This document shows, one piece after another, positions 2,544 to 23,512 of a stretch of 24,265 nucleotides of DNA. This DNA is from a virus. Both the position numbers and the translations under genes were made by a program. The notes below the pieces were generated by a model. That model was not told the DNA's origin. It saw only the letters and a program-made list of their open reading frames with translations, and made no database searches. Location: positions 1-24,265 of IMG/VR virus record IMGVR_UViG_3300021371_000099. One strand, written 5' to 3'. Position 1 is the first letter of the stretch. Each line of letters begins with the position of its first letter.

Positions 2544-2551
2544 TATAAATA
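2544..2551 (-). promoter_or_regulatory. Putative late-promoter octamer TATTTATA, proximal copy upstream of the 221-aa gene
   Basis: Coding-strand context ATATTTATATAAAAA. The octamer ends 13 bases before the ATG of the 221-aa gene. The site at 21359-21366 has the same 13-base spacing and almost the same following sequence (A-rich, ending in ATAACA or ATAACATT). If it acts as a -10 element, the transcript would have a leader of only about 5-7 bases. Confidence 0.5.
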
Positions 2552-2562
2552 TTGTTATATGT

Positions 2563-2570
2563 TATAAATA
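2563..2570 (-). promoter_or_regulatory. Putative late-promoter octamer TATTTATA, distal copy upstream of the 221-aa gene
   Basis: Coding-strand context CATATTTATAACATATAAC, starting 19 bases upstream of the proximal copy. Together the two copies fill most of the 43-base gap between the 1742-aa and 221-aa genes. A double element could be tandem promoters, or one promoter plus a chance AT-rich match. Confidence 0.4.
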
Positions 2571-2573
2571 TGA

Positions 2574-5500
2574 TTAATCTATAAGTTTATTATCTCTTAG
2601 TTGTTTTAATACCTCATCTGGATTTAATTCTATATCTGCTACCGGGTAGTGTGGGAAGAAGAATCCTGTAGGTGTGTTATCTTGTTTTCTTAATGGTGGT
2701 ATATATGAAATAAAACTTCCAGATATATTTTCTGTCATTGATTGTGATTGAGGAAAAGTAGAAGTCCAATCAAAATCTGGGTCAGTAACACCTGTACTTA
2801 TTAATTCAGTATTTCTAGATTCTGCGAATTTAGTTAATTGTGGTAAGGAACCATAAGGAAATAATTGATTAATTAAAATAGAGTTATAAGATGTAATAAA
2901 TCTTCTTAATAAGAAAAAGTTAATATTTACCCCAGGAGAAACTCTTCTATCTAGTGTTAATTTTAATCTAAATACTCCTTCAATTTCTTGTGTTTTTTGA
3001 GGGGGTGTTACTGTAATTACTTTATAAGTTTGCTGTTCACTATTTATAAATCGTATTTCATCATTTGGTAAAACATTCCATGGAAGATTTGGTCGAGGCC
3101 ATGCTGTATCTGTAGGTTCTTCACCTCCTGGGAAAGCATTATTACGACCTGGTATATAAGGTAAATACCCAATATAATAATCTTTATCATAGGTTAAATT
3201 CCCATTTTCAGATACTAACATTATTGCATCTTTTTGTCTTGTTTTAACTGCAGATCCTGTAGTAAATTGTAATAATAATTCACTATTATCTGAAAACATT
3301 AAATCATTATCTATACTAGGAGTAACTGGGATTATATATCGACGTGAATTTGAAGCTGTAGAACCTGCAGTTCCTATTGTTCCAGTTATAGATCCTGTAT
3401 ATTGAATGGTCCCTCCATTATTTTTAATTTCTATAAATCCTTTATTTGTTAAAGTGTTTAAATGATCCATATAAGGTTTAATATCCTGACCAGCTGATGA
3501 TGTTTGGGCTAGATAAATTGTAGAAGAATCACCAAATGTAGAACTATCAAACCTTATTGAACCTGAACCTAATAAATTATTAAATACTGGATTAAATTGA
3601 TCTGTACTAGAAGTATAATTATATTCTAATGGTGGTGTTGCGTTTGATGATGAAAATGCCCAGAAAGGATAATTTAAGGCATTATCTTCAGTATTATCTT
3701 CTGTTTGAGCTGATGTTACTTCTACATTAAAAAATGGACCTTTTATAGCTGGTTGTATTACTACAGGTGAATTATTACTACCTCCTGTAACTCCAGGACC
3801 GTAAACTGGTACTCTATTAGGATTCCAATAGTTTTTTAACCCATCATTATTAATTACGTCTTGAGTCTGCCCATCATATTTTAATCTAGAATTCCATCTG
3901 TATCGTACACCACTTACTAGTTCATTACTTGATTCAGCATTAAAATCAAATGATATATAAACTACTTGGTTGAGTCTACCTCCCTGAGCAATAGCATTTT
4001 GGATTTGATCTTCATATATACCTGATCTCCATCTATTACCTATAAAACTTTCATCTGATGATACTGATGCAAAGTCTATAGTTGAAGTTGTCCCATCTAA
4101 AGATGCTATATTTCCATTTTGACCACCATAATATACAGTTATTTTTGGAGGAGTTGTAAATGTAAAAGGAATATCAGTCCAATTACCTTGACCTTGTTGG
4201 ATAGATTTTTGGAGTCGGAGTTCAATTTGCCCTACTCTTCTACTTCCATATTGTGAGGAAGTACCACTTGGGTTGGACCAAGAAGACGCTTGGCCCACTC
4301 GGGTTCTAAATTGATCCGGTACAGTACTAGGTTGGGAATATTCTAACTTGATTTTATAAATATCTGATAAGGCTCCAGAATAAGTACCATCACTACCTGA
4401 TCCAATAGGGTCCATAGTAAAGAATATCTCACCTGGTGTTCCAAAATAGGGGTTAGTAGTAGCAGTATTATTAGGGTAATTTGGGTCAGTATCCTCATCA
4501 CTATCAATGGGGAAGGTTGAACCTGTCCAACTAGTAGTATCAGTTTCGTTTATGATAACAGCATTTCCTACTTGTTCATTGTAAGATACACCATCTTCAT
4601 CAACATATTGTCCCCATCTATTAAGGAATGATGAAGTTACTTGTGTTGCATTAAGAGTACCATTGGATGCTGTAATCCCTGCTAGTAAATTATTATAGCT
4701 AATATCTTGATCATTATTGTAATAAGCGTCATAAATAGTTCCCCCTACTCTTTGACCATATTGCATGTAGGATTGTGAAAAACTACTAACAAAATTTGGA
4801 TTTCCTTCCAATGGAATAGCATCTGTAAAACCTGCTGATGAAGTCTGTGAGTATAATATAGGAACTGCTTGTTTAGCTACTACTTGTATAGGTTGCAATC
4901 CATTAATTTGGTCATACTGGGATGAACCTGATATTTGGTTTACTTGAATATTTCCTAATCCCTTTTCTTCCCAATTCCCTTCTATATCTAGGCCAGTATA
5001 TGGGGATAACAAAGGATTTAAAGCATCACCTTTAGAATTAATTAAATATTTTAAGTTAAGTTGTATTTTATTATTTACTACAGGATATGGATCCAATATT
5101 TGATCACAATAGGCAAAATATGCTCTTTGGTAATCAATTACAGGTAAAGTTCCAAACCCACCACTTAAACCTTCTATTGAATTTACACTATTGGCTTGTG
5201 TTCTACTTCCATTATATCTTGGAAAAATTTTAGAAAGTGTTGTATAATTAGATATAGGTACTGTTGATTTTTGTGCTGATCCTGATAGTATATTTTGGAA
5301 GTTAATTGGGTCATATATTCCGGTTGAATAATCTACCTCCTGTATAGTTTTATTTCTTCTTTCCCCTATTGCATTATTTAAAATAGGTTGGCAATCTAAA
5401 GCATTGTTAAAACCTAATGTTCCTTCAAATGCATTTTCAACAAATGTTGGTACTAACCCATCCCCTTCTAAACTACTAGTTGGAGTATTAAATTCTAAAT

Positions 5501-7802
5501 AATAATCTCTTACTACTAATGAATTTTCTACTGATGCTGAATTTGCTGATCCAGATGATACCGATAATGCTAAAGATAAGCAATCTTTAATTGATATAGA
5601 TTGAGATGGTATTAAATAACTCATAGTAATAGCCAAACCATTAATATGAATATTTTCATCTCTAAATTCAGATTGTGTTACAAACGCATCTAATGTGGAT
5701 GGAACTGCTGTTGGGTAACTACCTGTGTAGATTCTTATAGAAGCAGTAGGCCAAGTCGGTCCATCTCCTGCTTCACCCTCGTTATAAACTGCGGTACCAT
5801 ATTCGGAACCTACTTCTCCATATCTATCACCTTCAGCACTACCTGTCCAAGCTGCAAGAAACATTGAGGCTGTTACTTGAATATCATTTTGAGGTAGTTG
5901 GTTAAAAACATATAAACCATCTAAACTAGAAGATAAAGATGATGAATATGATATATAAGCAGATTCCCATCTTTTAGAAAAAATATCTGGTGGTGGGTAT
6001 GGTGTACCAAGTACGCTAGGGAATAATATAGTACTGTTAAGTCCTAATGAATTATAAGTACCATTAGGGTTAAATTCTGGTGGATCTGTTGGTTCAGGTA
6101 CATATCCTTCCTGTGATAATGTTCCTACTAGAGCATCTATATTTACATTGTAACCATCTGGAATATCAACAAAGGATGAAGTATTAGCAGAAGAAGTAAA
6201 GAATACCCTTACACCTTCTAGGGCAGCAAATTCCTCTACTTTAATATTATACTTAGCATAAAATCCTAGATCAGTAACTAAACCAAATTGAGTTGATCCT
6301 GATGCTACTGAACCATTATTCCCTGTTGTTGGGAATGCACTACTGGTGTAAGTATAAACTCCTATATCTCTTAGAGTTATCGAGTTATAAGTCTGGGGGA
6401 GAATATTTCCATATGTGCCTTGACTTTGAAATAAATCTCCTATATAATCAGTATATGAAATTAATTCAGTTTTTAATGAGGTGTTTTGAGTAAACCCTGT
6501 AAAAGATCCAGGTTCAAATGTTGGATTTGAAACAAATAAATCAAAGAACCCTGCATTTGCATATAAAATTTCATCTATATCATATTCAATATAAGTTGCT
6601 ACAAGCGCATTAGGATCTGATAGTTTTAATTTTCCTCCAGGTTTACCAAAGTCTATTGCTTGTTGAAGACCTGATAATGTTGAATTATTTGAAAGAGTCT
6701 GATCGAAATAAATGTGAGTAGCAAGAGTAGCATTTGAATTGTTTGCTATTATCGCATTTTGTTGTGGTGGGGGTGTTGTAGTATTTTTCCAAGTAAATGG
6801 ACCCCCAAAATCATTTGTAAGTTCTTGGTAAGCATCTTCTCTGTATAATCTAAAGGCTGCACCTATAATTGGTGGTGAATTTAATACTTGATATTTTGTA
6901 AATACAAAAGGATGGATATTTCTTGAAGGGTTGTATATTTGAAATGAACCACTTACAGGTTCAACCCTATCAGGGCCAACCCTTTGACCGTCTATTTCAG
7001 TTGAGTAATTACCTAATATTGCTAATTGTTTTTCTAAAAATTTACCAGGAATATTCCCACCAGTATCATTACCAGCATTTGTGTTAATAGGGTTACCTAC
7101 TGGTAACCAAGGATTAGCAGGAATACCTGAACCTGTTTCAACTACTATATAAGCTTTATAAGCTCTATGTAAATGTGGATTATATCTATAAGGATTATTT
7201 CTTGATTCATCACTAAAATCTCCTCCTACTGTGCTATACCCCCTATGTACCCAAAGTTCTTGGTCTGCTTTTAAAGGTATTTCAGTACCATATTTATTTA
7301 TTTGATTACTTGTTAAAGTAACAACTAAATCACCTGAGGGGTTGGTAAATTGTCCTGCTAATTGAGCTTGGGAAATTGTAAATGTTTCTCCTGCTGACCA
7401 ATTACTCCCTGTTGCAACAACACAAGTTATTTGTGTTATCTGATACCCAGCTCCTACGGGTGTGGATACTACTGATACTTGAGCTCCTGTTCCGAACTTA
7501 TCACCAGTTATTGCTATTGGAGTTCCACCTCCTTGGTTGTCAACTGTTACTGTGTTGAAATTAGTAAAGGATTGACCTAAATTTAAACTTGTAAATTCAG
7601 GTCCATTTTCTACCATATAACTAGTATCAACTCCAAAATTTACAATTTTAGAATTATAAAATGTACTTCCTTGTGTTATTGGGTTTTTACTAGATGTAAT
7701 TAAAGCATTTGTTGAGGCCACAGAATCCGAACCTGAAACTAATATTTGGTTAGTATCTTCTTTAAAGTAATATTGTATTCTTGGGGTAGTTTGGTCTGCC
7801 AT
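2574..7802 (-). CDS. Giant structural protein, probable tail/baseplate-associated fibre protein (1742 aa)
   Basis: A 1742-aa protein rich in Ser, Gly, Asn, Tyr and Thr, with many SGS and TGS linkers, as expected of a long extended virion protein. Residues about 84-170 form a Gly-rich beta module (GTGAQVSVV, then SAGETFTI, then SGDLVVTL) that recurs in the 492-aa and 1894-aa proteins. Around residue 660 lies a YG-rich segment (DRYGEVGSEYGTAVYNEGEA). Residues about 1520-1742 are more ordered and charged: DKDYYIGYLPYIPGR, a LTLDRRVSPGVN strand segment and a C-terminus with FFFPHYPVADIELNPDEVL and LRDNKLID. I associate this tail with large unnamed structural proteins of marine T4-like phages. No membrane helix is seen. 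It is the only gene between two proposed late promoters, so it may form its own transcript. Receptor binding or a fibre scaffold are plausible roles but not shown. Confidence 0.85.
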   Translation of the reverse strand: MADQTTPRIQYYFKEDTNQILVSGSDSVASTNALITSSKNPITQGSTFYNSKIVNFGVDTSYMVENGPEFTSLNLGQSFTNFNTVTVDNQGGGTPIAITGDKFGTGAQVSVVSTPVGAGYQITQITCVVATGSNWSAGETFTISQAQLAGQFTNPSGDLVVTLTSNQINKYGTEIPLKADQELWVHRGYSTVGGDFSDESRNNPYRYNPHLHRAYKAYIVVETGSGIPANPWLPVGNPINTNAGNDTGGNIPGKFLEKQLAILGNYSTEIDGQRVGPDRVEPVSGSFQIYNPSRNIHPFVFTKYQVLNSPPIIGAAFRLYREDAYQELTNDFGGPFTWKNTTTPPPQQNAIIANNSNATLATHIYFDQTLSNNSTLSGLQQAIDFGKPGGKLKLSDPNALVATYIEYDIDEILYANAGFFDLFVSNPTFEPGSFTGFTQNTSLKTELISYTDYIGDLFQSQGTYGNILPQTYNSITLRDIGVYTYTSSAFPTTGNNGSVASGSTQFGLVTDLGFYAKYNIKVEEFAALEGVRVFFTSSANTSSFVDIPDGYNVNIDALVGTLSQEGYVPEPTDPPEFNPNGTYNSLGLNSTILFPSVLGTPYPPPDIFSKRWESAYISYSSSLSSSLDGLYVFNQLPQNDIQVTASMFLAAWTGSAEGDRYGEVGSEYGTAVYNEGEAGDGPTWPTASIRIYTGSYPTAVPSTLDAFVTQSEFRDENIHINGLAITMSYLIPSQSISIKDCLSLALSVSSGSANSASVENSLVVRDYYLEFNTPTSSLEGDGLVPTFVENAFEGTLGFNNALDCQPILNNAIGERRNKTIQEVDYSTGIYDPINFQNILSGSAQKSTVPISNYTTLSKIFPRYNGSRTQANSVNSIEGLSGGFGTLPVIDYQRAYFAYCDQILDPYPVVNNKIQLNLKYLINSKGDALNPLLSPYTGLDIEGNWEEKGLGNIQVNQISGSSQYDQINGLQPIQVVAKQAVPILYSQTSSAGFTDAIPLEGNPNFVSSFSQSYMQYGQRVGGTIYDAYYNNDQDISYNNLLAGITASNGTLNATQVTSSFLNRWGQYVDEDGVSYNEQVGNAVIINETDTTSWTGSTFPIDSDEDTDPNYPNNTATTNPYFGTPGEIFFTMDPIGSGSDGTYSGALSDIYKIKLEYSQPSTVPDQFRTRVGQASSWSNPSGTSSQYGSRRVGQIELRLQKSIQQGQGNWTDIPFTFTTPPKITVYYGGQNGNIASLDGTTSTIDFASVSSDESFIGNRWRSGIYEDQIQNAIAQGGRLNQVVYISFDFNAESSNELVSGVRYRWNSRLKYDGQTQDVINNDGLKNYWNPNRVPVYGPGVTGGSNNSPVVIQPAIKGPFFNVEVTSAQTEDNTEDNALNYPFWAFSSSNATPPLEYNYTSSTDQFNPVFNNLLGSGSIRFDSSTFGDSSTIYLAQTSSAGQDIKPYMDHLNTLTNKGFIEIKNNGGTIQYTGSITGTIGTAGSTASNSRRYIIPVTPSIDNDLMFSDNSELLLQFTTGSAVKTRQKDAIMLVSENGNLTYDKDYYIGYLPYIPGRNNAFPGGEEPTDTAWPRPNLPWNVLPNDEIRFINSEQQTYKVITVTPPQKTQEIEGVFRLKLTLDRRVSPGVNINFFLLRRFITSYNSILINQLFPYGSLPQLTKFAESRNTELISTGVTDPDFDWTSTFPQSQSMTENISGSFISYIPPLRKQDNTPTGFFFPHYPVADIELNPDEVLKQLRDNKLID

Positions 7803-7824
7803 GTTTTAATTTAGTATACTTTAC

Positions 7825-7843
7825 TATTATAAATAATATAATA
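7825..7843. repeat. AT-only inverted repeat in the leader of the 1742-aa gene
   Basis: Seven-base arms TATTATA and TATAATA separated by AATAA, lying across the octamer at 7828-7835. The stem is made only of A and T, so it is weak as an RNA hairpin. It could be a symmetric protein-binding site or simple AT-richness. The 71-base gap holding it also has runs of A and T but no GC-stem terminator. Confidence 0.3.
7828..7835 (-). promoter_or_regulatory. Putative late-promoter octamer TATTTATA upstream of the 1742-aa gene
   Basis: Coding-strand context TTATTTATAATAGTAAAG. It differs from the other copies only in the first base of the extended form (T instead of A). The spacer to the ATG at 7802 is 25 bases, which leaves room for a conventional short leader. 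It lies in the longest gap of the structural region. Confidence 0.5.
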
Positions 7844-7873
7844 AAAAATTTTTAATATTCCTAACTGTTTTTT

Positions 7874-10800
7874 TTAAGGTGCCCATGGATCAAGTCCAGT
7901 TCCTGTAGTGCTACTAACATAATATGATTGTTGTACTTCACAATAATATGAGATAGCTCCTCCAAAAGTTTCTATATATACTCTACCTACTCTAATTGAA
8001 ATTGATGTACCAGATTGGAAAGGTGCGTCTACAACACTAACATTAACCCCACCACTACCTGTTTGACCTAGAGGAGAAACATTAATCCAACTAACAGGGT
8101 TAACACCCGTAATATCTGTAGCTCTAGCAGTCCATATGACGGTTTGAGGGGAAGTTGTAACTGTAATACTTCTTGTTGGATTATTAGTAGGTTGAAGACT
8201 AGTCATATTAGGACAACTTACACTAAGGCTGGACCCAATTGGGGTAAGGTTAATCCTTGGTGTCACGGGGACTTGAACTGGGTCAGATCCTGATATTATT
8301 TCAAACCAAGGTCCTATTTGTACCGATGATGCTGTTATTGACCCTGTATAGAATTGTAAATCATTTTGACCATTTCCTCCTAAAGTTGATGAAGCACTTA
8401 ATGCCATTATAGTAGCAGGTTTAGCATTCATAAACCAAGGACCTTTACTTGCAGTATATGGTATACTTGGGTCATTATCTATTTCATATGAACCTGTAAA
8501 GAAGTTACCATTTGTATCACTACTAAATCCACTACCTGATCCCACTCTAAATACATCACCATTACCATCAGTTTGAAAATAAGTTGATTGACCCCAACCT
8601 CTAAAGAAAGATTCTGTTGGGAAACCATTTACAGGTGGGAAAAACCCTTGTGGAACTGATTGGGTAATACCTAATGTAGGTGTTACATTTGGATCTTCTC
8701 CAGATGACGTAGCATAATAACTAAACTGACCACTTGCACTAAATGTTAAATCATAGAAATTAGTATCATATGAAGTAACAGCTTGTGAAGACGGGAGTTG
8801 ATTTATAATTAATAAAGTAGCATCTTCAGTATCTGGGTTATCATCAGATTGAAATGATGAATTTGCTATATACCATGTTTGGTAACCATCAATAAGATTA
8901 TTTAAATAATCACTAGCACCAGTTAAATTAAATTGAACATATAAACTATCTTGAATGAATGGAATAATTGGTATATTATTTACATCAACATTAGACATTT
9001 TTATGTATTTAACTGTATTTGTTACATTATTAGCTACATCCTGATTTAGTAATGTTATTATTAGATCTTGATTAGCTTGAGTTAAACCATTTGAAGTTAA
9101 AGTAGCTAATGGGATTGTAATTCGTTCTGATGGTCTAAAGTTTAAACCTGATAGAGTGGCTTCTGCATTTACCCTACTATTATTACCACCATTTGTGTAT
9201 ATTCTTATAGAGGCACCAGTTCCTATTCCTGAGGGTCCATCAGCATTTATATTTTCAAGTATAAAATCTACAACAGGCCCACTTGTTGTCCCATTTTGGA
9301 TATTTTGAGTAATATTAAGTGGTTGATTAACGGTTAATTCTCCATTTATACTAACAGTATCAGCCCAAAACCAAACATTTCCTTCTAATGGTAAATTATT
9401 AGGATCTATAAAGCTTTGTTCTGGGAAGTTATTATGGTTAAACCATTGAATTCTGAATTGGTAATCGGGTACATTATCTTGTCCAAAAAATGCACTACAG
9501 ATATCTTTCATCCCTACATCAATAGGGTCTCCAAATTCTCCGTTATAAAATTCTCTTTGATCAATTCTAGGATAGTTTACTGGGGAGACTTCATTTGAAT
9601 TTAAATTATATAATTCATTAGGCATACTTATACCTTTACCAGGTACAATTGATTCACTCCAAGATTGCACAAAACCTGGGTATTGTGCAAAAAATGAAGA
9701 GGCAGATACTTCACTTGTTGTTAAACCACTATATGGACTCCCAGCTATTGTAAAACATATATTTACAACTTCATTATCTGTGTAGGAATCTACATGCTGG
9801 AGGAAACCTTGCCCAATTTTATTTTCTTCTACTGTTAAATAGAATTGATATTGTGAAGTATAATCACCATAAGGAGCATTTCCATAATCTGAATCATCAT
9901 GTCCGTATCCACCATAATATATACCTCTATCAATCCTCCATAACATATAACTATTAGGATTATTATTTCTAGTAACTTGAACATAATTAACTTGACCCGC
10001 TGTAGAACTAGATACTAATGCCATTAATTCTGAATGGTTTTGGAGATCTGTTCCTAGAGTACTAAGACTCATAGTATTAGTCGTATTAGTGGCATCTATA
10101 TTTGTTAGAAGAAATTCACCGTTATTAGCATTTGGTTCTAAAATATTAACTGATGAAGAGTAAAAATAATTTTCAATACAAATTATAGAATTTGATTCAC
10201 TAACTGGGGCAGCAAAATTATTATTAAATGGTTCAAATACACCACCTGTACCTCCACTAAACTTATATATAGCTGATCCACTAACATTACCGTATGATGG
10301 GAATGAACTTGATGGGAGGGCATCTTGACTTTGTCCTGGGGTTTGGCCAACATATGCTGTTACATTTTTATTAGAGTTAGGTACTTGGTAATCCCTAGGG
10401 AATGATTTTACACTACCGGAATATATTGGGGTTGTATATGAAGCAGAAGGAGGTGCCTGTCTATTTCTTTCTAATAAATTTTGTTTAATAACTACACCTG
10501 AAGATAAACTAGTACGAGCAGGTGTAAAATCTTTGACCATTTTAAATAATGAATTGTCAAAAAATTTAATTAACCTTATAAAGTCATTTATGTTATAACC
10601 ATTTATATATTTTGTAAAATATTCATCCCGTAATTGATCTAATTGAGGGTATGAATAACCCGATTCTGATATTTGTCTTGGGTCCCCAATATAATCACCT
10701 AAATTAAAGGCACCAATTTGGGCAATGATATCATCATTAACTTGGTCCGTAGGTGAAAATGCTACTTCTAAATAGTTTATATTAGGGTTACTACCACTTG

Positions 10801-13558
10801 GGTAGGAAGATTGTTGTATTGATCTATAAGGAGATAAGGTAGAACCTGTAGGTAAAATTTCATCTACTATTTGTATTTTATCTGTAATTCTATTTTTAAT
10901 ACCTCCTGGTACTTGATTTAAGAATATTTCCTCTTTATTTGTTATAAATGAGCCTGTTACAAAGAAATCACTAGTATTATCTGCAAAGGATTGTGTTATT
11001 TCCCAAGACCCAGTTACTTTAGGATGAATTGATGTCCTACTCGCTGTTATTAATTGTGTACCTAAATCTGCTCTAAATACTAAATCATTAGGTGTAGAAT
11101 TAATTGTATTACCTTGTGTTGAATATGGGTTCATTACATAATCGAAAAATAAACTTTCGCTTAATGCAACATCCCAATATCTTACTTCTTGTAAAGCACC
11201 CGTTAATGGTGCGTAATTTTGGAGACCAATTAATAATGAAGCTGATGGTAAATAACCTATTGATGTGTTAGCCCAATATTGCCAGTTATAAGTTGCTTCA
11301 TTAGATCCTGAAAATCCTATTTGGTTATCTATTCTATTAGCAGCATATAATACTGCTTTTTCAGCTTCAGGACTTGTTGGGTTATAATCTACAGTTGCTT
11401 GAACTGACCACCAACCACCATCAAAAAATGGTAAATCTATACTAGCGGTGTTATTACCTGCTAATAAACCATCTGGCCATAATTTTAAAGTACCATAAGC
11501 ATTACTTTCAGATGGTACTGATCCTGAATATGAACCACTATCCATCCCTGAACCTGTATATTCGAGGGTTATAAATGCTCTTGTTTGGTCTCCTACCCAT
11601 ACATTATAATATGCAGATGAAGTAGGTATACCTGGGGTTTTAAATCTAAATTGTAATGATTTAGGAGCTGAATCTACATTTTGGAATTTAGGGTTTACTA
11701 CAAATGAAGATGACATATAACTATTTCCATCTAAATGTAGAGCATAATTAAATATATCTTCTTGAAAATCCCAATCTTTAAAGTCTTGTCTATCTTTACC
11801 CCCAAACTCATTTATTCTTAAAATTGTTGAAGGAATACCATAAGCTGTAATTAATGCTCTGATGCCAGCTATTGTACCTTTTTTCTTAAGTAAATATGGT
11901 ATATTATGGTATATCCGTTTATATAATGACTTATTTACATTATCTAATGGCACTATATTATCCGATGCAGATATTGTTGTATCTACGTACTCATACCCAG
12001 AAGGTGCAGGATAACTACCAGTCATATTAGGGAAAGGAAATGCACTACCCGATGGGGTTATTCCTAAAAATGATGTATATAAATCATCTGTGTTAAAATT
12101 ATTTGAGTATAATTTCACACCAAAATCCTTAATAGCATCTGCTACTAAATCTTGGGCTATACCAAAGTCTAAACGGTTATCTGCGTCAAATCTAGTGGTT
12201 AAATTTTTAGTATATAACCATGTGTTATCATACTGTTGAGCCACCATATCAACGAATAATTCGTATTTTGCATTTTCTGGGTCTTCTCTAAGATATGAGG
12301 GAATAGCATTAAATAAATAATCAGGGTTATTAGCATCATAATTTGAAGCTGATACTGCCTGACCTCCGTAATAACCACTTGTTTCATCTGTACTACCCAC
12401 CCATGTTAAGGCTTCAGTACTTCCAGTAGGAAATAAAATATAAGGGGGTTCTGTATTTTGTTTTGGGTATGATTTTGTAGACCCACTGTTAAAATACATA
12501 AAATACTCCCAACCATCAAAATTAGTAATAACTTTTTCAATACTATTACTAAGTTCAGCTTTACTAGAACTATATGTACCACTATTTAAGGGTAAATTAG
12601 CAATAGCATTACTCGAAGATTGAATTAATCCTACTTTATAGTAAAAATTATCTAATCTAGTGTATGCTGATGAAAAATGAATAAAATTACTATATTCAGT
12701 ATAATCAACACTTATATTAATATTTTTTCTATTTAATAGACTTTTTAGCTGGTTTTGAGAGCTGGTTATATCAGTACTTATTAAAGTATCATAACTAAAT
12801 AATTCACCAGATTTCCCAGTTTCTTGTGTTGCAGTAATGCTATAATTTGGACCTTTTATAAATTGAATATCATTTGATTCAAAATTAAAAGGAGGAAAAG
12901 TAACACTATATGCTTCAGGGTATGAGATTTCTTCAACTACCCATAAGGTTGACTTTAAATCAAATTGAGGGGGTAAAGGTTCATATAACTTAACTAATAA
13001 TGAAGGTTCTACAGAGGTTGTAGTATCTAATTTTAAATTATTAGCAATAACTTGTTGATCATTCCCAAAATTAAGAAGAAAATCTACAAAATAATCTTGG
13101 GTTTCACGAATTTCAATAAATGCTTCACTTGAACTAACAATTAATTCACTTGGTATAACATTACTATTTAATCTTAATTCAGTTCTATCTGAACTAATTT
13201 CACTAATATAATAATTAATATTAATATCTGATGCTAATCTTTTTCTATAAAAATTATAAGTAGCATAAAAAGTACCTTCATCAAATCCTAATTCTTCAAG
13301 ATTTTCATCTGGGTATAATAATGTATCACCGTTTACTACACTGTAGTTAGTTACAGGAACTGCTTTGACTGATCCTACTTGGGGGTAAATTAAATTTTTA
13401 CTTTCATCATAAGCATAATATTCTATATAATCGGTAGAGGAAGAGAAAGCAGTATCTAGTCTTGAGGAAGATATTAAATTACTATCTTGCTCGTTATATT
13501 GTTGAAATTCAAAACTTTTTGGATCAACCTGTACTATATTTATTTTATTTTCTTCCAT
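7874..13558 (-). CDS. Giant multidomain tail/baseplate protein (1894 aa) with LamG-like and BACON-like domains
   Basis: A 1894-aa protein in the position where gp7 or gpI-type tail proteins usually follow gp6/gpJ. Residues about 1-600 look like a conserved tail core: KYELFVDMVAQQYDNTWLYT (about 431-450) and, near 548-587, RIYHNIPYLLKKKGTIAG followed by YGIPSTILRINEFGG. Residues about 605-815 resemble a LamG/concanavalin-type sandwich (FFDGGWWSVQATVDY, SLLIGLQNYAPLTGALQEVR). Residues about 930-1033 are another conserved block (NDDIIAQIGAFNLGDYIGDP, then FIRLIKFFDNSLFKMVKDF). A Gly-rich beta module lies at about 1432-1508. Residues about 1776-1880 look BACON-like (VSWINVSP, GSGGVNVSV, a final VQQ). 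The core suggests attachment to the baseplate; the LamG and BACON parts suggest glycan or host-surface binding. It starts 2 bases after the 159-aa gene. Domain calls are from pattern recognition. Confidence 0.87.
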   Translation of the reverse strand: MEENKINIVQVDPKSFEFQQYNEQDSNLISSSRLDTAFSSSTDYIEYYAYDESKNLIYPQVGSVKAVPVTNYSVVNGDTLLYPDENLEELGFDEGTFYATYNFYRKRLASDININYYISEISSDRTELRLNSNVIPSELIVSSSEAFIEIRETQDYFVDFLLNFGNDQQVIANNLKLDTTTSVEPSLLVKLYEPLPPQFDLKSTLWVVEEISYPEAYSVTFPPFNFESNDIQFIKGPNYSITATQETGKSGELFSYDTLISTDITSSQNQLKSLLNRKNINISVDYTEYSNFIHFSSAYTRLDNFYYKVGLIQSSSNAIANLPLNSGTYSSSKAELSNSIEKVITNFDGWEYFMYFNSGSTKSYPKQNTEPPYILFPTGSTEALTWVGSTDETSGYYGGQAVSASNYDANNPDYLFNAIPSYLREDPENAKYELFVDMVAQQYDNTWLYTKNLTTRFDADNRLDFGIAQDLVADAIKDFGVKLYSNNFNTDDLYTSFLGITPSGSAFPFPNMTGSYPAPSGYEYVDTTISASDNIVPLDNVNKSLYKRIYHNIPYLLKKKGTIAGIRALITAYGIPSTILRINEFGGKDRQDFKDWDFQEDIFNYALHLDGNSYMSSSFVVNPKFQNVDSAPKSLQFRFKTPGIPTSSAYYNVWVGDQTRAFITLEYTGSGMDSGSYSGSVPSESNAYGTLKLWPDGLLAGNNTASIDLPFFDGGWWSVQATVDYNPTSPEAEKAVLYAANRIDNQIGFSGSNEATYNWQYWANTSIGYLPSASLLIGLQNYAPLTGALQEVRYWDVALSESLFFDYVMNPYSTQGNTINSTPNDLVFRADLGTQLITASRTSIHPKVTGSWEITQSFADNTSDFFVTGSFITNKEEIFLNQVPGGIKNRITDKIQIVDEILPTGSTLSPYRSIQQSSYPSGSNPNINYLEVAFSPTDQVNDDIIAQIGAFNLGDYIGDPRQISESGYSYPQLDQLRDEYFTKYINGYNINDFIRLIKFFDNSLFKMVKDFTPARTSLSSGVVIKQNLLERNRQAPPSASYTTPIYSGSVKSFPRDYQVPNSNKNVTAYVGQTPGQSQDALPSSSFPSYGNVSGSAIYKFSGGTGGVFEPFNNNFAAPVSESNSIICIENYFYSSSVNILEPNANNGEFLLTNIDATNTTNTMSLSTLGTDLQNHSELMALVSSSTAGQVNYVQVTRNNNPNSYMLWRIDRGIYYGGYGHDDSDYGNAPYGDYTSQYQFYLTVEENKIGQGFLQHVDSYTDNEVVNICFTIAGSPYSGLTTSEVSASSFFAQYPGFVQSWSESIVPGKGISMPNELYNLNSNEVSPVNYPRIDQREFYNGEFGDPIDVGMKDICSAFFGQDNVPDYQFRIQWFNHNNFPEQSFIDPNNLPLEGNVWFWADTVSINGELTVNQPLNITQNIQNGTTSGPVVDFILENINADGPSGIGTGASIRIYTNGGNNSRVNAEATLSGLNFRPSERITIPLATLTSNGLTQANQDLIITLLNQDVANNVTNTVKYIKMSNVDVNNIPIIPFIQDSLYVQFNLTGASDYLNNLIDGYQTWYIANSSFQSDDNPDTEDATLLIINQLPSSQAVTSYDTNFYDLTFSASGQFSYYATSSGEDPNVTPTLGITQSVPQGFFPPVNGFPTESFFRGWGQSTYFQTDGNGDVFRVGSGSGFSSDTNGNFFTGSYEIDNDPSIPYTASKGPWFMNAKPATIMALSASSTLGGNGQNDLQFYTGSITASSVQIGPWFEIISGSDPVQVPVTPRINLTPIGSSLSVSCPNMTSLQPTNNPTRSITVTTSPQTVIWTARATDITGVNPVSWINVSPLGQTGSGGVNVSVVDAPFQSGTSISIRVGRVYIETFGGAISYYCEVQQSYYVSSTTGTGLDPWAP

Positions 13559-13560
13559 AT

Positions 13561-14040: not shown

Positions 14041-14048
14041 TTTATATA

Positions 14049-15527: not shown

Positions 15528-15529
15528 AA

Positions 15530-17371
15530 TTATAAGTTTATTACTTTTCCTTTAATATCTGTATTTGGGTATTTTAATTCAAAAATACTTGGGTCTAAAG
15601 AAGGAAATATTGTTCCATTTTGATTTGCACCACTCATATCATATGCCCATTCTGAATATCCTTTGCTTGATCCTGCAATATTGTATATTATAATTTCTTT
15701 AACAGTTTGTACTCCATCTAAGGCATCTAATAATACATAAAGATCAGGTACAATAATAGGTTGATTTATTTGCCATTTATTAATATCAAAATAGTTTTGT
15801 AGTGCTATTAGACACCTTTCAATTACTTCATTATTATTAAAATCAGGATATGTTGTTATTGAAAAATTTACACCAAAATTAATAATAAAAGCATTTTTAA
15901 TACTAAGAGTATCACCAATCATTTTATATTCATTAAGATATGTTCTAACATTTTGTTTTAAAGCATTAGAAGGAACATCTAAAGTACCTTGTTGGTTTTG
16001 AGTTAATACATAAAGATCTAATGTTGTATTAGCTTCATCTGCATTGGGTTTTTGAGTCCATGCTTTTGAGATTCTACCATATTTAGAAGGCATACTTAAA
16101 GCTCTTACTAAATAGTCATTAGCAGTTACATTTCTTAACTGTGTTGAGAAATTTGATATACTATTTTGTCTTATTTCTTCTATTGTATCACCATCTTGAC
16201 CACCAGAGGCAGCTAATGGGTTATTTGAGGCTATAGAATCAAATACATATTGGGCTGTAGTTGGGTTTAATCCTCCTTTTATAAATTTTATGTTTTGGGT
16301 ATTAATATTTGTAATTGTATTAGATAATACATTAGATTCAACACCCCCACCAGTATAATATCTTACAGTTAATGTAGTATTCGAAGGGGCAATACCGTAA
16401 GTATTTGTAAATATAAAATTAGTAGGACTATAAGCTGCTGTTAATTTATTTTGTTCAAATGGTAAACCTAAACCAACATTCATTGAATTTGGGATAATTT
16501 CTTCTGTTGTACTATCAGGGTTACCAACACCAAATTGGAGTTGAAGACGAGTATTACTTAAAAATCTTGTTGCAAATCTAGTTTCTACTGATTTAGTTTG
16601 TAATAAATAAGGTGTATCTGTATCTAAATAAGTATTTGGGTCATTTATATTTGTATTTCTAATCCCATCAAATACTAATTCTTGCCCTAAATAATCAACC
16701 TCATACCATCTATTTCCATCAGAATCTATTACGTCAACTATACCAGCTATATTGGGTTGATCAATTTCTACTGTAAGAAAATCTTGTGGTGATCCTACTG
16801 AAAAAGATGTTGTATTGATTTTACCTGAAAATACATTTCTTGATTTTCTTAATAGGTAAAAAGAAGGATTACCTCCTGATAATTGGGCAATTGAAACGTT
16901 AGTTGGGTCTAGTGAACTAGATACTGTGAAGTCAATTGGGTTGTCTAAAGTAAAAGTTACAGTGGTTGCTGAAGTAGTTGATATTGTAGTATTGGCATCT
17001 ACATATAAAGCATAATCATAGTCAGGAACATACTCATTATTAACTAATTTAGCAGGAACCTGTTGGTATATATCTACAAAAGTATTTGATAAACCTGTAA
17101 CTTTAGGTTTATAACCGTACATATAAGCCATATCAAAGATATTACTTTGTTGTCTAGCATATTGTAGAAAATTTTCTTGTATTTGGTTATCTAAATAAAA
17201 GGATAATACATCACCTACATATGCTGCTTGTTCTATAAACATCATCCCTGGGGATGTATTTGAAAAATCAGTATAAGTAGTTGGAAAATAAGTTTTTGAA
17301 TAGTTAATTAGCTGATTCCTTAACTCTGTAAATTCTTTATTTATATATTTTATATCTTTTCTTACAGCCAT
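15530..17371 (-). CDS. Baseplate wedge protein, gp6/Baseplate_J-like (613 aa)
   Basis: Forms part of the baseplate wedge ring of contractile tails. The N-terminal region has the signature of gp6/gp47/gpJ-type proteins: SPGMMFIEQAAYVGDVLSFY, then DNQIQENFLQYARQQSNIFD and a YGYKP turn (about 40-90). The middle part has a DGDTIEEIR motif followed by ISNFSTQLRNVTANDYLVRA and SKYGRISKAW (about 394-445), typical of the family's central domain. The C-terminus is alpha/beta and includes VLLDALDGVQTVKEI. The length is close to that of T4 gp6 (about 660 aa). It overlaps the stop of the gp25-like gene by one base (TAATG), an arrangement matching the 25-6 order in T4. The start at 17371 (ATGGC) fits the neighbours. 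Confidence 0.92.
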   Translation of the reverse strand: MAVRKDIKYINKEFTELRNQLINYSKTYFPTTYTDFSNTSPGMMFIEQAAYVGDVLSFYLDNQIQENFLQYARQQSNIFDMAYMYGYKPKVTGLSNTFVDIYQQVPAKLVNNEYVPDYDYALYVDANTTISTTSATTVTFTLDNPIDFTVSSSLDPTNVSIAQLSGGNPSFYLLRKSRNVFSGKINTTSFSVGSPQDFLTVEIDQPNIAGIVDVIDSDGNRWYEVDYLGQELVFDGIRNTNINDPNTYLDTDTPYLLQTKSVETRFATRFLSNTRLQLQFGVGNPDSTTEEIIPNSMNVGLGLPFEQNKLTAAYSPTNFIFTNTYGIAPSNTTLTVRYYTGGGVESNVLSNTITNINTQNIKFIKGGLNPTTAQYVFDSIASNNPLAASGGQDGDTIEEIRQNSISNFSTQLRNVTANDYLVRALSMPSKYGRISKAWTQKPNADEANTTLDLYVLTQNQQGTLDVPSNALKQNVRTYLNEYKMIGDTLSIKNAFIINFGVNFSITTYPDFNNNEVIERCLIALQNYFDINKWQINQPIIVPDLYVLLDALDGVQTVKEIIIYNIAGSSKGYSEWAYDMSGANQNGTIFPSLDPSIFELKYPNTDIKGKVINL

Positions 17372-17778
17372 TAGTTAAAATTTAAATTTAAAGTATCTTC
17401 AATAGCAGTATTTATAACATTATAATATATTTGTACTGTTACTTCATTATTGTCTGGGTTAGATAAAACATTTAATTCACTAACATTTACAAGAGGAAAC
17501 TCATTTTTTATTTTTGTATTTATATCTTCTTTTAAGAAATCTAAATTATCAGAATTTATTTGAGAAAATATGAATTGTCTTAAACCACCACCAAATGTTG
17601 GATTACCAGGTCTTTCACCAGGATTAGTTAAAAAGTAATTAATTAGATTATTTTTTATTGCTCGGGCAGTTTGATAATTAGGAGTAAACACACCACCAGC
17701 GTTGAATGGGAGATCTACTCCTATACCAACCCTTGGTCTTAAATCATTAACAAATTGATTTGGTGCTCTAAACGCCAT
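17371..17778 (-). CDS. Baseplate wedge protein, GPW/gp25 family (135 aa)
   Basis: A small baseplate wedge component which, in T4 and in type VI secretion systems, helps nucleate sheath assembly. The 135-aa length matches the family (T4 gp25 is 132 aa). The diagnostic segment is present: NNLINYFLTNPGERP followed by NPTFGGGLRQFIF (about residues 43-71), with the GER..G-P-x-F-G core. The C-terminal part ends in alternating beta strands (EVTVQIYYNVIN). It is followed without a gap by the gp6-like gene and preceded by the 132-aa gene with a one-base gap. One of the most secure calls in the window. Confidence 0.95.
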   Translation of the reverse strand: MAFRAPNQFVNDLRPRVGIGVDLPFNAGGVFTPNYQTARAIKNNLINYFLTNPGERPGNPTFGGGLRQFIFSQINSDNLDFLKEDINTKIKNEFPLVNVSELNVLSNPDNNEVTVQIYYNVINTAIEDTLNLNFN

Positions 17779-17779
17779 A

Positions 17780-18178
17780 TTATATTTTACCTTTCATTAA
17801 ACTCATTATTTGGCTCATATCTACCTCACCTTGAGGTAAACTACCATTTGGGCTAGTTGTATCTATGTTGCCACTCATTTGTAATGGCATTCTATTTGTA
17901 TTTGCACTTATAGTACCATTAGCATCAGGCATCATAGACCCTAATACATTTTGTATATTTTCCCTCATTGCCATTCTATCACCTTCAGGCATAGAAGTTT
18001 GCATTACTGGGTTCATTGGGCCTGGTGCTGCTACATCTGTTGTAGGGGTACCCATTCTGTTTTCATAAACAGTTTGTTTAGGAGAGCGTACAGCTTCCAT
18101 AAGAATGTCTTTCATTTCTTCTTGGATTGCCTCTTTTACAGCTTCCTTTACGATTATTTTTAATTGACTTAGTTTCAT
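17780..18178 (-). CDS. Small protein with amphipathic N-terminal helix, baseplate region (132 aa)
   Basis: A 132-aa protein. The first 34 residues (MKLSQLKIIVKEAVKEAIQE and on) form one strongly helical, charged segment with a repeated K-E-A-V/I pattern. The remainder is Met-, Pro-, Asn- and Gly-rich, low in hydrophobics and probably flexible, with a final helix (DMSQIMSLMKGKI). I recall similar N-terminal helices on small unnamed proteins of marine T4-like phages, but no function. It starts a compact run of genes through gp25 and gp6 to the giant tail protein and lies directly behind a proposed late promoter. A scaffold or chaperone role is possible; not shown. Confidence 0.78.
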   Translation of the reverse strand: MKLSQLKIIVKEAVKEAIQEEMKDILMEAVRSPKQTVYENRMGTPTTDVAAPGPMNPVMQTSMPEGDRMAMRENIQNVLGSMMPDANGTISANTNRMPLQMSGNIDTTSPNGSLPQGEVDMSQIMSLMKGKI

Positions 18179-18183
18179 ATGTT

Positions 18184-18191
18184 TATAAATA
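18184..18191 (-). promoter_or_regulatory. Putative late-promoter octamer TATTTATA upstream of the 132-aa gene and gp25-gp6 block
   Basis: Coding-strand context TTTAATATTTATAAACAT, filling the 18-base gap between the 491-aa and 132-aa genes. Only 5 bases separate it from the ATG at 18178. If it is a -10 element, transcription would begin at or very near the start codon (a leaderless message) or the first ATG would not be used. This makes it the least certain copy by position, though its sequence match is full. Confidence 0.42.
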
Positions 18192-18196
18192 TTAAA

Positions 18197-19672
18197 TTAA
18201 TCTGCTTTTAAATTATTTTGCACTATATAAAATGCTAGTTCATCTAGTAATATTTGATCTTCGGCACTAAATGAAGGTTCTCCCTGTAATATTGTAATTC
18301 CTTGAGAATTTTTACCAATTGCTCTTCTTCTATATTGGTCTCCTACTTTAAATTTTTCTTCTTTTATAACTGAAAGTTCAAATCCATTTACGTTACCTAT
18401 TATTTCATTACCTTGTTGTTCTGAGTTGGTTTTTAATGCTAAAAGTTCAGCATTTATTTCATCCATAGGGAGGGGAGGACTAGTGGATGCACATCCTTCT
18501 ATTAATTCATCAATACGTTTCATATAACTTAATATTATTATTAGAGATATAACTAAAAATACTAAGGATATAATTATAGCTTTTTTAAGTTCTTTAGATA
18601 CATTTGTAAAAGAATCTAATAATTGTTGTAGTTTTTCTAATCGACTAGTCAAAGAATAAGGTACACCTACTCCTAATGGAGCACCCAAGGGTATAGGTAA
18701 TGAATTTATAGTCAGTTTTACCCCTTGTAGTTGGAGAGATATATAAAATAGGACTCCAGCAAGAGTAGTATTTACTGCTATTATTACCCACATTTGATTT
18801 ATTTGTTTAACTATAGAATTTCTTTTTTTAATTAATTCTCTTAATACTTCATTACTAGGACATACTGCTTGTTCTTGTTCTTCTTTTTCTAGTTTAGTAA
18901 TACCAAATATAATCATTAATTGTATAGCTAAAGGAAGTAATTTATTTTGTACTACACCAGCAAATTTTAATACTTGAGATTTTATAGTTAATAAAGCTAA
19001 TTCAGCCGCATCTAAAAGAAATTTATTTGCTTGTATTGCTTTTTTATTTATTTCTTCCTCTACTTTTTCTGCTTCTACTTCAGCAGCCTTTTCTATATTT
19101 AACATTGGAACTATAGGTAAAACTTGGGGTACTTCACCCGCCAATGTTACTAAAGATTGTTTAGCAGGTGCATATCCTTCTAATTGGTAAAAAGTAAAGG
19201 GTTTTAAAATAGCTAATAAAGGTAAAGCACTAATACTTACAGTTCCAAACTTAAGTTCATACTCTCCCTTTTCATCAGTTTTTATGTCTTTATTACCATC
19301 TTTATCATATACATATTCCTTATATGTTTGATCAATTTTTATTCTTTTTACTTTACCTGTTAATCTATTTACTTCACCATTAGGGTCATCAATCTTAATT
19401 TTTCTAGTCTTAGTTACTAATTTCATAGGATATAAAGCAAATTGGGGTTTTACTTTTACTCCTTGGAGAGGTTCATTAGTTTGTTCATCATATATCCTAC
19501 CTTTAACTGTATAAGTAGTGATGACTGGTTTGTATCTTTCAATAAGGGCTTTAGTCATTTGAAAATCCTCTATAGCCCCTGTTACACCCTCAGCAGCAGC
19601 AACTATCTTTTTACCTTTTGGGGATTGGATAAATAATTCACCTAACTCTAATAATTCTTTTTCACCTTCCAT
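18197..19672 (-). CDS. Membrane-spanning baseplate-region protein with carboxypeptidase-regulatory-like domain (491 aa)
   Basis: Not a recognised named family. Residues about 54-180 look like a carboxypeptidase-regulatory-like beta sandwich: TVKGRIYDEQTNEPLQGVKV, then TDEKGEYELKFG, then YQLEGYAPAKQSL. Residues about 195-235 are a charged helix (EKAAEVEAEKVEEEINKKA). Three hydrophobic segments follow at about 243-258, 294-314 (MWVIIAVNTTLAGVLFYISL) and 364-383 (KAIIISLVFLVISLIIILSY). The C-terminus (about 425-491) is soluble: GFELSVIKEEKFKVGDQYRR, then GEPSFSAEDQILLDELAFYI. It begins one base after the hub/spike stop and precedes the gp25 block, so it belongs to the baseplate genes. Membrane helices in such a protein suggest it enters the host envelope during infection, or is membrane-bound during assembly. 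Start ATGGA; no signal peptide. Confidence 0.85.
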   Translation of the reverse strand: MEGEKELLELGELFIQSPKGKKIVAAAEGVTGAIEDFQMTKALIERYKPVITTYTVKGRIYDEQTNEPLQGVKVKPQFALYPMKLVTKTRKIKIDDPNGEVNRLTGKVKRIKIDQTYKEYVYDKDGNKDIKTDEKGEYELKFGTVSISALPLLAILKPFTFYQLEGYAPAKQSLVTLAGEVPQVLPIVPMLNIEKAAEVEAEKVEEEINKKAIQANKFLLDAAELALLTIKSQVLKFAGVVQNKLLPLAIQLMIIFGITKLEKEEQEQAVCPSNEVLRELIKKRNSIVKQINQMWVIIAVNTTLAGVLFYISLQLQGVKLTINSLPIPLGAPLGVGVPYSLTSRLEKLQQLLDSFTNVSKELKKAIIISLVFLVISLIIILSYMKRIDELIEGCASTSPPLPMDEINAELLALKTNSEQQGNEIIGNVNGFELSVIKEEKFKVGDQYRRRAIGKNSQGITILQGEPSFSAEDQILLDELAFYIVQNNLKAD

Positions 19673-19673
19673 A

Positions 19674-21002
19674 TTAGCTAGTTTTTACTTTATTAGATTT
19701 GTGAACTCCGGCTTTTGCTCTATTTAATATATTATCCAAGGTTCCTCCGGCTTGACTTAAAATAGTAGCATAAGATTGTGCAATGGGTACTGAATTTTCT
19801 AGGGCTAAATTACCACATAAAGCTTTTAAACTATTTACTATTGTTATAAAATCATCTATAAATGTATCCCCTAAAATTACAGCTTCAGTAGCATTTGTTT
19901 TTCCTAATGATACTATACCCTTATCCGATATAATATTTATATTTCTATTTTGGGATTGTATTCCCAAATCTTCAATTGATGTTAATACAATTGATTTATT
20001 GGATGAAAATAATATACTATCTGTATGGGTATTAAATAATAATCTTCCAGAATTTAATATTATTTGAGGATTATTGTAAGACTTAGGTGATTGGGGTACA
20101 GGGGAAATAATATTAGAATATGGGATTGTTGATCCTTCTCCTTCTTTTTTCTTAGATACTGCAATATCAAATGGGATGTTTTGGGTAGAAGTTAAATATA
20201 TGGATGTAGGGTCATTGTTTATATCTTCTGTAATAGGTAAATAACCTTCGGATGAACCACTTAGGGGTTGACCATTTTTAATAATAGTAATTGGATCCCC
20301 ATTTTCAGTATTTTTACCTTTAGACCAATTATTTTGTATAATACCTCCAGCTTTAGAAGTATTACCTAATCTAATACTATTACCAAATCTACCTTCAAAT
20401 ATATTATCACCAGCAAATGGTAAAATAGGGTGAATATCTCCTTTTTCCTCAAAGGTACCACCACTATTACCATTTAAATTTATACTTTGTTTTTGTGTTG
20501 TAGGTCTATTTACATTTCCTGCTTCTATAGAGGTATAGGATTTATTTAGAGATGGGGAAAGATTACTATTATTATTTAAACTTATAGGTGCAGCATTTAG
20601 ATGTTGGTTATTCCATAATGCTGTAATACTTACATAAAAATTCTTTAATTGTGACCCAACATCAGGGTTTACATTTGATGGTCCTTTTACAATAAGTACA
20701 TACTCATTAACTAAAGGGTAAGTTTTTAAATTAGGGAATAAAGGAGTAGCTAATTGGACTGTAGAATTATCTGTACTTGTAGAGCCAGGAGATTTAATTT
20801 CAGAAAAGTTAATAGTTCCTATTCCTGACCATTCACCTGTTTTTGAAAATAAATCAGAATTAGAATTAAGATTAATATCTACAACTCGAGCAATTATAAA
20901 TTTACCAATTTGTGAAGTCTCATTATTAACCCCACCCCTACTTGAATTATTATTAGGTGAAGCTTGAAATAATCTAGATATCCCAGTTTTATTTACTGCC
21001 AT
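19674..21002 (-). CDS. Baseplate hub/tail spike protein, gp5/VgrG-like (442 aa)
   Basis: Probably the central hub or membrane-piercing spike under the tail tube. Residues about 30-130 are a beta-rich domain reminiscent of the OB fold of spike proteins (IGKFIIARVVDINLN, YPLVNEYVLIVKGPS). About 198-213 reads GDNIFEGRFGNSIRLG, a motif I recall from marine T4-like hub/spike proteins. From about 311 onward are short alternating strands (PQIILNSGRLLFNT, SILFSSNKSIVLTS, INIISDKGIVSLG) as in the triangular beta-prism or needle of gp5 and VgrG, then AVILGD and a C-terminal KSNKVKTS. No lysozyme domain is seen. I chose ATGGCAG at 21002, which overlaps the 118-aa gene by 14 bases and resembles other starts here. 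An upstream in-frame ATG at 21038 would add 12 residues and a 50-base overlap. Confidence 0.78.
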   Translation of the reverse strand: MAVNKTGISRLFQASPNNNSSRGGVNNETSQIGKFIIARVVDINLNSNSDLFSKTGEWSGIGTINFSEIKSPGSTSTDNSTVQLATPLFPNLKTYPLVNEYVLIVKGPSNVNPDVGSQLKNFYVSITALWNNQHLNAAPISLNNNSNLSPSLNKSYTSIEAGNVNRPTTQKQSINLNGNSGGTFEEKGDIHPILPFAGDNIFEGRFGNSIRLGNTSKAGGIIQNNWSKGKNTENGDPITIIKNGQPLSGSSEGYLPITEDINNDPTSIYLTSTQNIPFDIAVSKKKEGEGSTIPYSNIISPVPQSPKSYNNPQIILNSGRLLFNTHTDSILFSSNKSIVLTSIEDLGIQSQNRNINIISDKGIVSLGKTNATEAVILGDTFIDDFITIVNSLKALCGNLALENSVPIAQSYATILSQAGGTLDNILNRAKAGVHKSNKVKTS

Positions 21003-21345
21003 CTTTAGTTTCCTCGAAGTTATTATTGAGATTTTCAATCTCTTTCATTAATTGTTGTTTTTCTTCTTCCGTTATACCTAATGTATCCCCACTAGAACTA
21101 TTATTAAGCGCGCGTTGTATTATAGTTGACATCTTAATTAATTGTTCATCGTTACGAACGCCAATATCTAAATATTCTTTAATAAGTGGAACAATAAGGG
21201 TTGCATCCCCTATATCATTAATTAAAGGTTTTAGTTCTGAAATTAATCCTGAGATTTGAGTTGCTTTTTTGTTTTGGTTATCGTAAATTTCATTAAGAAT
21301 ATCAGAAAATTTCTTATCACCAAATACTATATTATCTAGAGCCAT
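20989..21345 (-). CDS. Conserved helical protein, first gene of the late structural block (118 aa)
   Basis: A 118-aa, almost entirely helical, charged protein. Key segments are FSDILNEIYDNQNKKATQIS, then ISELKPLINDIGDATLIVPL and VRNDEQLIKMSTIIQRAL. I recall this pattern from unnamed small genes near the baseplate and sigma genes of marine T4-like phages. A baseplate hub assembly factor or chaperone is a reasonable guess because it overlaps the hub/spike gene by 14 bases and is presumably translationally coupled to it. The ATGGC start at 21345 lies 13 bases behind a proposed late promoter. No SD sequence. Function unknown. Confidence 0.82.
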   Translation of the reverse strand: MALDNIVFGDKKFSDILNEIYDNQNKKATQISGLISELKPLINDIGDATLIVPLIKEYLDIGVRNDEQLIKMSTIIQRALNNSSSGDTLGITEEEKQQLMKEIENLNNNFEETKDGSK

Positions 21346-21358
21346 AATGTTATTTTAT

Positions 21359-21366
21359 TATAAATA
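21359..21366 (-). promoter_or_regulatory. Putative late-promoter octamer TATTTATA between the sigma gene and the first structural gene
   Basis: Coding-strand context CCATATTTATAATAAAATAA, 13 bases before the ATG of the 118-aa gene and 17 bases after the sigma-factor stop. Spacing and flank closely match the proximal copy at 2544-2551. Its place at the boundary between the regulatory genes and the baseplate genes is what a late promoter would require. Confidence 0.55.
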
Positions 21367-23477: not shown

Positions 23478-23487
23478 CTTACTAAAT

Positions 23488-23512
23488 GTTGAAACGTTGA
23501 AACGTTTTCAAC
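23488..23512. repeat. Nested direct and inverted repeat (GTTGAAAC x2 plus TTTCAAC)
   Basis: Two tandem copies of GTTGAAAC (23488-23495 and 23496-23503). The second copy pairs with TTTCAAC (23506-23512) to give a perfect 7-base inverted repeat with a 3-base loop. Repeated half-sites of this kind are typical of operators; as RNA it is a small hairpin. On the minus strand it is not followed by a U run. It lies in the 141-base noncoding gap before the 57-aa ORF. Confidence 0.55.

Follow-up and report, generated by a model that had tools for sequence, protein, structure and literature searches.

The octamer TATTTATA is, with a probability that we put at about 0.85 from sequence comparisons, the single-element late promoter of a clade of T4-like phages, where it would be read by a phage gp55-type sigma factor on the host polymerase. 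The window analysed here is a complete virus record of 24,265 bases from a T4-like myovirus. We propose that TATTTATA takes the -10 position, that a sequence-specific -35 would not be needed, and that the gp55-type sigma encoded by ORF 21383-22096 would recognise the octamer and replace the host sigma on the host RNA polymerase. The structural blocks would then be switched on, first the block directly behind the sigma's own gene. The transcripts would begin some 6 nt past the octamer, which would give some genes very short or absent leaders. We infer that this promoter class is late in time. The reading draws on the placement, strand bias and conservation of the octamer, on the absence of a second element and on the homology of the sigma.

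Six copies of TATTTATA are present on the minus strand of the window. A first-pass annotation had assigned five of them to leaders and one to the inside of a gene; this was correct and all coordinates were exact. The copy at 21359-21366 is located in the leader of ORF 20989-21345, 16 bases past the stop of the sigma gene, and is the predicted late promoter that opens the structural block. The first gene behind it (20989-21345, minus strand) codes for 118 amino acids and has no assigned function. The copy at 18184-18191 is 5 nt ahead of the ATG of ORF 17780-18178, which is part of the same block as the late structural genes for a gp25-like baseplate wedge protein (17371-17778, minus strand) and a gp6/baseplate J-like protein (15530-17371, minus strand). 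A further copy (7828-7835) is in the leader of ORF 2574-7802 (1742 aa). The leader of ORF 1865-2530 carries a doublet; its upstream member is at 2563-2570 and its downstream member, 19 nt from the other, at 2544-2551. Since two of the five leader sites share one leader, four leaders carry the motif. The copy at 4355-4362 within ORF 2574-7802 is probably due to chance. The giant ORFs 2574-7802 and 7874-13558 (1894 aa) in the structural block had no Pfam or PHROG match. All five leader sites have the extended form (A/T)TATTTATA(A/T), as the annotation had proposed, and the five copies in the opposite orientation (3041, 17338, 17409, 17517, 19934) are all inside genes, again as it had claimed.

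With the simple gene model used, non-coding DNA amounted to 1.6% of the window, i.e. leaders are a small share of the sequence. The 381 intergenic nucleotides contained 5 sites; shuffles that keep the dinucleotides gave 0.23 on average, and none of 20,000 reached 5. Over the whole window the sense count was not enriched (6 vs 4.6 expected, P = 0.30). Because this total is unremarkable, the signal consists of placement and orientation and not of abundance. Comparison with shuffled sequence, which had been suggested as a check, thus upheld the placement in leaders and failed for the total sense count.

Megablast of the window against phages gave no match. Relatives were collected with the gp6 protein; 80 were kept in IMG/VR (36-90% identity) and divided by gp6 identity into a close (60-90%) and a distant group (36-46%). 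The cultured phages matched by the window gp6 were Flavobacterium phage immuto (43%) and Microcystis phage Mel-JY01 (41%). Unbiased 8-mer counts were made over the distinct leaders of each group. In the close group no 8-mer was more enriched than TATTTATA (z 29; 54 sense, 4 antisense copies). In the distant group the overlapping ATATTTAT came first (z 27) and TATTTATA second (50 sense, 0 antisense). Shine-Dalgarno sequences were present in the distant group and absent from the close group. Therefore, the same octamer probably operates in different kinds of hosts.

Individual genomes were examined with leader-by-leader shuffles in ten clade genomes or contigs (immuto, Mel-JY01, G001, G003, G006 and G011-G015). 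TATTTATA was enriched in all ten (p<0.001), with 25 leader copies vs 2.5 expected in immuto and 11 vs 2.2 in Mel-JY01. The T4 late octamer TATAAATA stayed near expectation in the same ten, without convincing excess over the shuffles; the count in immuto (8 vs 4.2, p = 0.046) is partly due to the overlapping TATTTATAAATA. The mirror pattern, TATAAATA enriched in leaders, was observed in T4 (18 sites), Syn33 (5), HTVC008M (11) and phage OC (9), and among these four some excess of TATTTATA was seen in T4 only (7 vs 1.7). GC-richer clade members use the form TA(T/C)TTATA. LR756508, the most distant genome tested that has the sigma, showed no significant excess of TATTTATA (4 vs 1.7 expected) and just a weak TACTTATA signal in its leaders. 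Genome-wide, Mel-JY01 has 35 sense and 28 antisense copies, many of them within genes. In immuto the motif is present in 17 of 38 late-block leaders vs 8 of 80 others (p 4e-5); some motif-bearing genes lie outside the structural block. This concentration agrees with the earlier link of the octamer to structural gene blocks, and the strand-specific leader enrichment in complete or long relatives supports its interpretation as a promoter.

The four window leaders were then traced into relatives, and the octamer was found ahead of the same genes, as the first-pass annotation would predict. Ahead of ORF 20989-21345 it occurs in every one of the 22 distinct leaders of the close group, in that of immuto and in the majority of distant relatives. 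All 21 orthologous leaders of ORF 17780-18178 have it, at a distance of 5-19 nt to the ATG, as do all 8 of ORF 2574-7802. For ORF 1865-2530 it was found in all seven close long contigs; the doublet with its 19-nt spacing (window 2544-2570) is conserved in G011, G012, G014 and G015, and immuto has a single site. In these four sets of orthologous leaders the octamer is unchanged, while flanks and spacing to the ATG drift. In some distant relatives the orthologous leaders carry the variants ATATTTATT or TACTTATA.

For the architecture of the promoter, one logo was made from 24 immuto leaders that are unlike each other and another from 33 leaders of close relatives. Both consisted of the octamer with a weak A/C before and a weak ATAAA after it; the extended motif is roughly ATATTTATA(A/T). 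No conserved element was present in the -35 region of either logo. T4 late promoters, too, have a -10-like element but lack a conserved -35 (PMC7892883). Phages without Shine-Dalgarno sites had median gaps between octamer and ATG of 13-20 nt. In G006 and Mel-JY01, in which part of the motif genes have such a site, the medians were 27-36 nt. A longer gap in the presence of a Shine-Dalgarno site is expected if the octamer lies upstream of the RNA. Among 176 leaders the gap distribution had two modes, with 17 leaders at 3-5 nt, 3 at 6-9 nt and most of the others at 10 nt or more. This distribution, i.e. 3-5 nt or at least 10 nt and few between, is compatible with a transcript start some 6 nt past the octamer. 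If transcription starts there as in T4, the mRNAs of the 3-5 nt group would be leaderless. In Pelagibacter phage HTVC008M (L245-L252) four T4-type late octamers were located exactly 5 nt ahead of start codons. Together with the site at 18184-18191 of the window these gaps suggest leaderless late mRNAs.

A peculiarity was noted in two leaders of the gene after the sigma gene (L081, L075). There, a strong terminator-like hairpin has the octamer as part of its loop, AGCCCTCC-TATTTATA-GTATATA-GGAGGGC-TTTTTTT-ATG (-20.3 kcal/mol, z -4.2). A transcript that starts just past the octamer would lose the 5' arm of the hairpin and keep AGGAGG as a Shine-Dalgarno sequence. Consequently, read-through would stop whereas late transcripts would pass. 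Upstream of the immuto motifs there was no clear excess of terminator-like hairpins (4 of 23 vs 6 of 78).

In immuto a second class of putative promoters was encountered at about 60-77 kb (L089-L092). It has two elements, GTTG-N~23-TATATTTAGGTATC (also GTTG-N-TTTAGGTA; the box alone is written TATATTTAGGTA), and stands ahead of small genes of the early region, where it clusters (20 sense vs 2 antisense). It is similar to the sigma A promoter of flavobacteria, which has a TAnnTTTG box (PMC9723704). As these two-element sites are distinct from the late octamer, early host-type and late single-element promoters appear to be separate in this phage. The window has a single match to the early class (GTTG, 21 bases, ATTTAG; 23482-23512, minus strand), a candidate host-type early promoter at the head of the sigma-gene operon.

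Could the octamer itself be a host-type promoter, i.e. a -7 TAnnTTTG box of the Bacteroidetes primary sigma or an AT-rich -10, used by an unmodified host polymerase without a phage sigma? The close group has no Shine-Dalgarno sequences and immuto infects Flavobacterium; ATATTTATA resembles the early box TATATTTAGGTA, and at 3 of the 5 leader sites the extended sequence is TATAA. The Bacteroidetes consensus consists of a TAnnTTTG box and an upstream TTG element (PMC9723704). However, most immuto sites have no TA before the octamer and the late leaders lack the TTTG end as well as any conserved upstream element; the -33 region is not conserved, unlike in the early class of the very same immuto genome. 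In addition, one octamer serves phages with and without Shine-Dalgarno sequences, among them a Microcystis phage. The octamer thus does not follow the host, and we consider a host-type promoter unlikely.

Besides encoding a gp55-type sigma, the phage carries in TATTTATA a perfect reverse complement of TATAAATA. Therefore, it had to be excluded that the octamer is a T4-type promoter on the opposite strand, which would produce antisense RNA into the upstream gene. The orientation data make this very improbable. The octamer is tied to the downstream start codon, mostly at 10-20 nt (27-36 nt in G006 and Mel-JY01), nearly all genes are co-directional, and the preferred flanks (A before, ATAAA after) point the same way as the genes. 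Further, in T4, Syn33, HTVC008M and OC it is TATAAATA that points in the sense direction. Read in the same direction, TATTTATA and TATAAATA are identical at 6 of 8 positions and differ by a change of the central AA to TT (TAT-TT-ATA vs TAT-AA-ATA). The first-pass annotation was thus right that the core differs from that of T4, yet it is a close variant in the same register.

Equally little credit can be given to an RNA-level leader element that acts in ribosome binding, mRNA stability or processing instead of a promoter. Such an element would be sense-oriented near start codons, as the octamer is, and might be welcome in the close group with its lack of Shine-Dalgarno sequences. But the gap ranges from about 3 to more than 50 nt and is longer in phages that have Shine-Dalgarno sites as well; within one orthologous leader it varies from 5 to 19 nt with the octamer retained. 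Most clade genes have no octamer, and phages with the other gp55 branch are marked by an octamer that is changed in the opposite sense. Finally, chance or the base composition of AT-rich leaders, to which the ordinary whole-window count might point, is practically refuted: even the highest counts in shuffled leaders made up only a fraction of those in the ten clade genomes, the reverse complement, with its equal composition on the opposite strand, is rarely or never seen, and the strand-biased octamer is kept in orthologous leaders while its flanks change.

A late promoter read by a phage sigma calls for a reader, and ORF 21383-22096 (minus strand, 237 aa) is likely to be this reader, a divergent T4 gp55-type late sigma, as judged from profile matches and the predicted fold. 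Attention was drawn to it by a sub-threshold match to Sigma70 region 2 in seven relatives. The window protein had no match in Pfam, and phmmer and profile searches of the PDB were without useful result. It matched the late-sigma PHROG 234 with E 0.013 over residues 24-160. With a profile of 20 clade proteins, in which no gp55 was included, the gp55s led all non-members (OC 6e-7, phi-pp2 0.0018, HTVC008M 0.0027, T4 0.02-0.03). In the reverse search a gp55 profile ranked the clade proteins first (window E 1.2e-5), and profile-profile comparison of clade sigma and gp55 gave E 5e-6 over 103 columns. The AlphaFold2 model of the window protein had a pLDDT of 77.8 and a pTM of 0.50. A Foldseek search with it was weak on its own (best E 0.13); nearly all top VIA rows were sigma factors, and residues 12-116 fitted sigma domain 2 (1or7_B, Z 9.2, rmsd 2.7 Å over 93 residues; VIA). 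Domain 2 occupies residues ~12-118 and is followed by an extra C-terminal helical domain (~142-237). Orthologues in immuto, Mel-JY01 and LR756508 have the same position relative to the baseplate genes; the immuto orthologue is gp118. The records of immuto and Mel-JY01 list theirs as 'hypothetical protein' and mark no late promoter. Relatives of the sigma are encoded in 474 IMG/VR stretches. The small ORF immediately upstream of the sigma gene (22083-22379) has a weak holin match (PHROG 1296, E 0.003). A phage-encoded RNA polymerase was also considered as reader of the octamer and was dismissed as no beta-subunit domain was found; in the search for single-subunit polymerases the controls gave no match, so its outcome carries no weight.

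T4 gp55 flips A-12, which is stacked on Y97, A-9 (N13, H95) and A-8 (T99) (PMC7892883). If TATAAATA is numbered from -13 to -6, the changes in the clade octamer fall on -10 and -9, and A-12 and A-8 are retained. The tyrosine aligned with Y97 of the A-12 pocket is invariant in the 20 clade proteins. They do not conserve the N13 position and mostly have G or S at that of T99, despite the retained A-8. H95 was discarded as a specificity marker: F, Y or H occupies this position in other gp55s too, and because F or Y already occurs there the residue is uninformative. The correlates are mixed; the pattern of residues fits an altered reading of the centre of the octamer, short of proof.

The C-terminal domain of the clade sigma is conserved. 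It comprises about 95 residues, was predicted alone with a pLDDT of 87 and stands in place of the short hydrophobic/acidic clamp-binding epitope. The gp33 family PF16805 was present in 10 of 10 gp55 phages tested and was not found in immuto, Mel-JY01 and LR756508 (3 of 3), a search that could miss a very divergent or unrelated equivalent. The gp45 C domain PF09116 was not found in these three genomes either; it was also missed in phage OC. The gene 20989-21345 was considered as gp33 and was rejected as family support is absent. Tentatively, then, the clade may have a one-piece late sigma in which a gp55-like domain 2 is joined to a C-terminal domain that does the flap-binding or upstream-DNA job of gp33, with no separate gp33; we regard this as possible but rather doubtful. 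By eye the C-terminal domain has a stretch that looks like gp33, yet hhalign gave a probability of 1.7, which is not significant, and the fold search produced a mixture of low-scoring rows (integrase N-domain, TFIIB, sigma-28 domain 4). Because both sequence and fold searches are weak, the domain was assigned neither as gp33-like nor as domain-4-like. A review of T4 late transcription states that no fused gp55-gp33 sigma has been found and asks why (PMC2988020). The clade sigma is a candidate answer to this open question and, if the proposal is true, would be a natural 'fused late-transcription sigma' with the new core TATTTATA.

Independent of the proposed fusion, a large aquatic clade combines a centrally changed octamer with a strongly diverged, longer sigma and no recognisable gp33. 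This would offer a matched promoter-sigma pair with which changes in sigma specificity could be studied, and TATTTATA may serve as a simple rule for late-gene annotation in uncultured phages. Our literature search for TATTTATA as a phage promoter returned nothing relevant, and no papers on late promoters of immuto or Mel-JY01 were found.

To our knowledge, descriptions of the T4 late octamer present it as almost the same throughout the T4-like phages. In silico the late octamers of KVP40, 44RR and S-PM2 are near that of T4, and Aeh1, with a/gC at -13/-12, demonstrates that the octamer can drift (PMC2988020). In none of the four, as described there, is the central AA changed to TT. Ochrobactrum phage vB_OspM_OC (MT028491) has the late sigma that is the closest gp55 found with the clade profile (E 6e-7). 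It differs in that its leaders are enriched in CATAAATA/TATAAATA and not in TATTTATA, and that gp33 is present. Immuto (NC_055915) and Mel-JY01 (PP395634) share both the sigma orthologue and the TATTTATA leaders with the window. Like the T4 late promoter, that of the clade is a single AT-only octamer without a conserved -35, in sense orientation in the leaders of structural genes, and as in the gp55/gp33/gp45 system of T4 the putative sigma is phage-encoded with a domain 2 related to gp55. Differences are the length of the sigma (185 aa in T4 vs 237 aa in the clade, which includes the C-terminal helical domain) and the lack of detectable PF16805 and PF09116 in immuto, Mel-JY01 and LR756508. 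The T4-type core TATAAATA (or xATAAATA) is not that of the clade octamer. Since the clade core is TATTTATA and TATAAATA is not convincingly enriched, the clade octamer is best described as a variant of the T4-type late promoters, not as a member of them.
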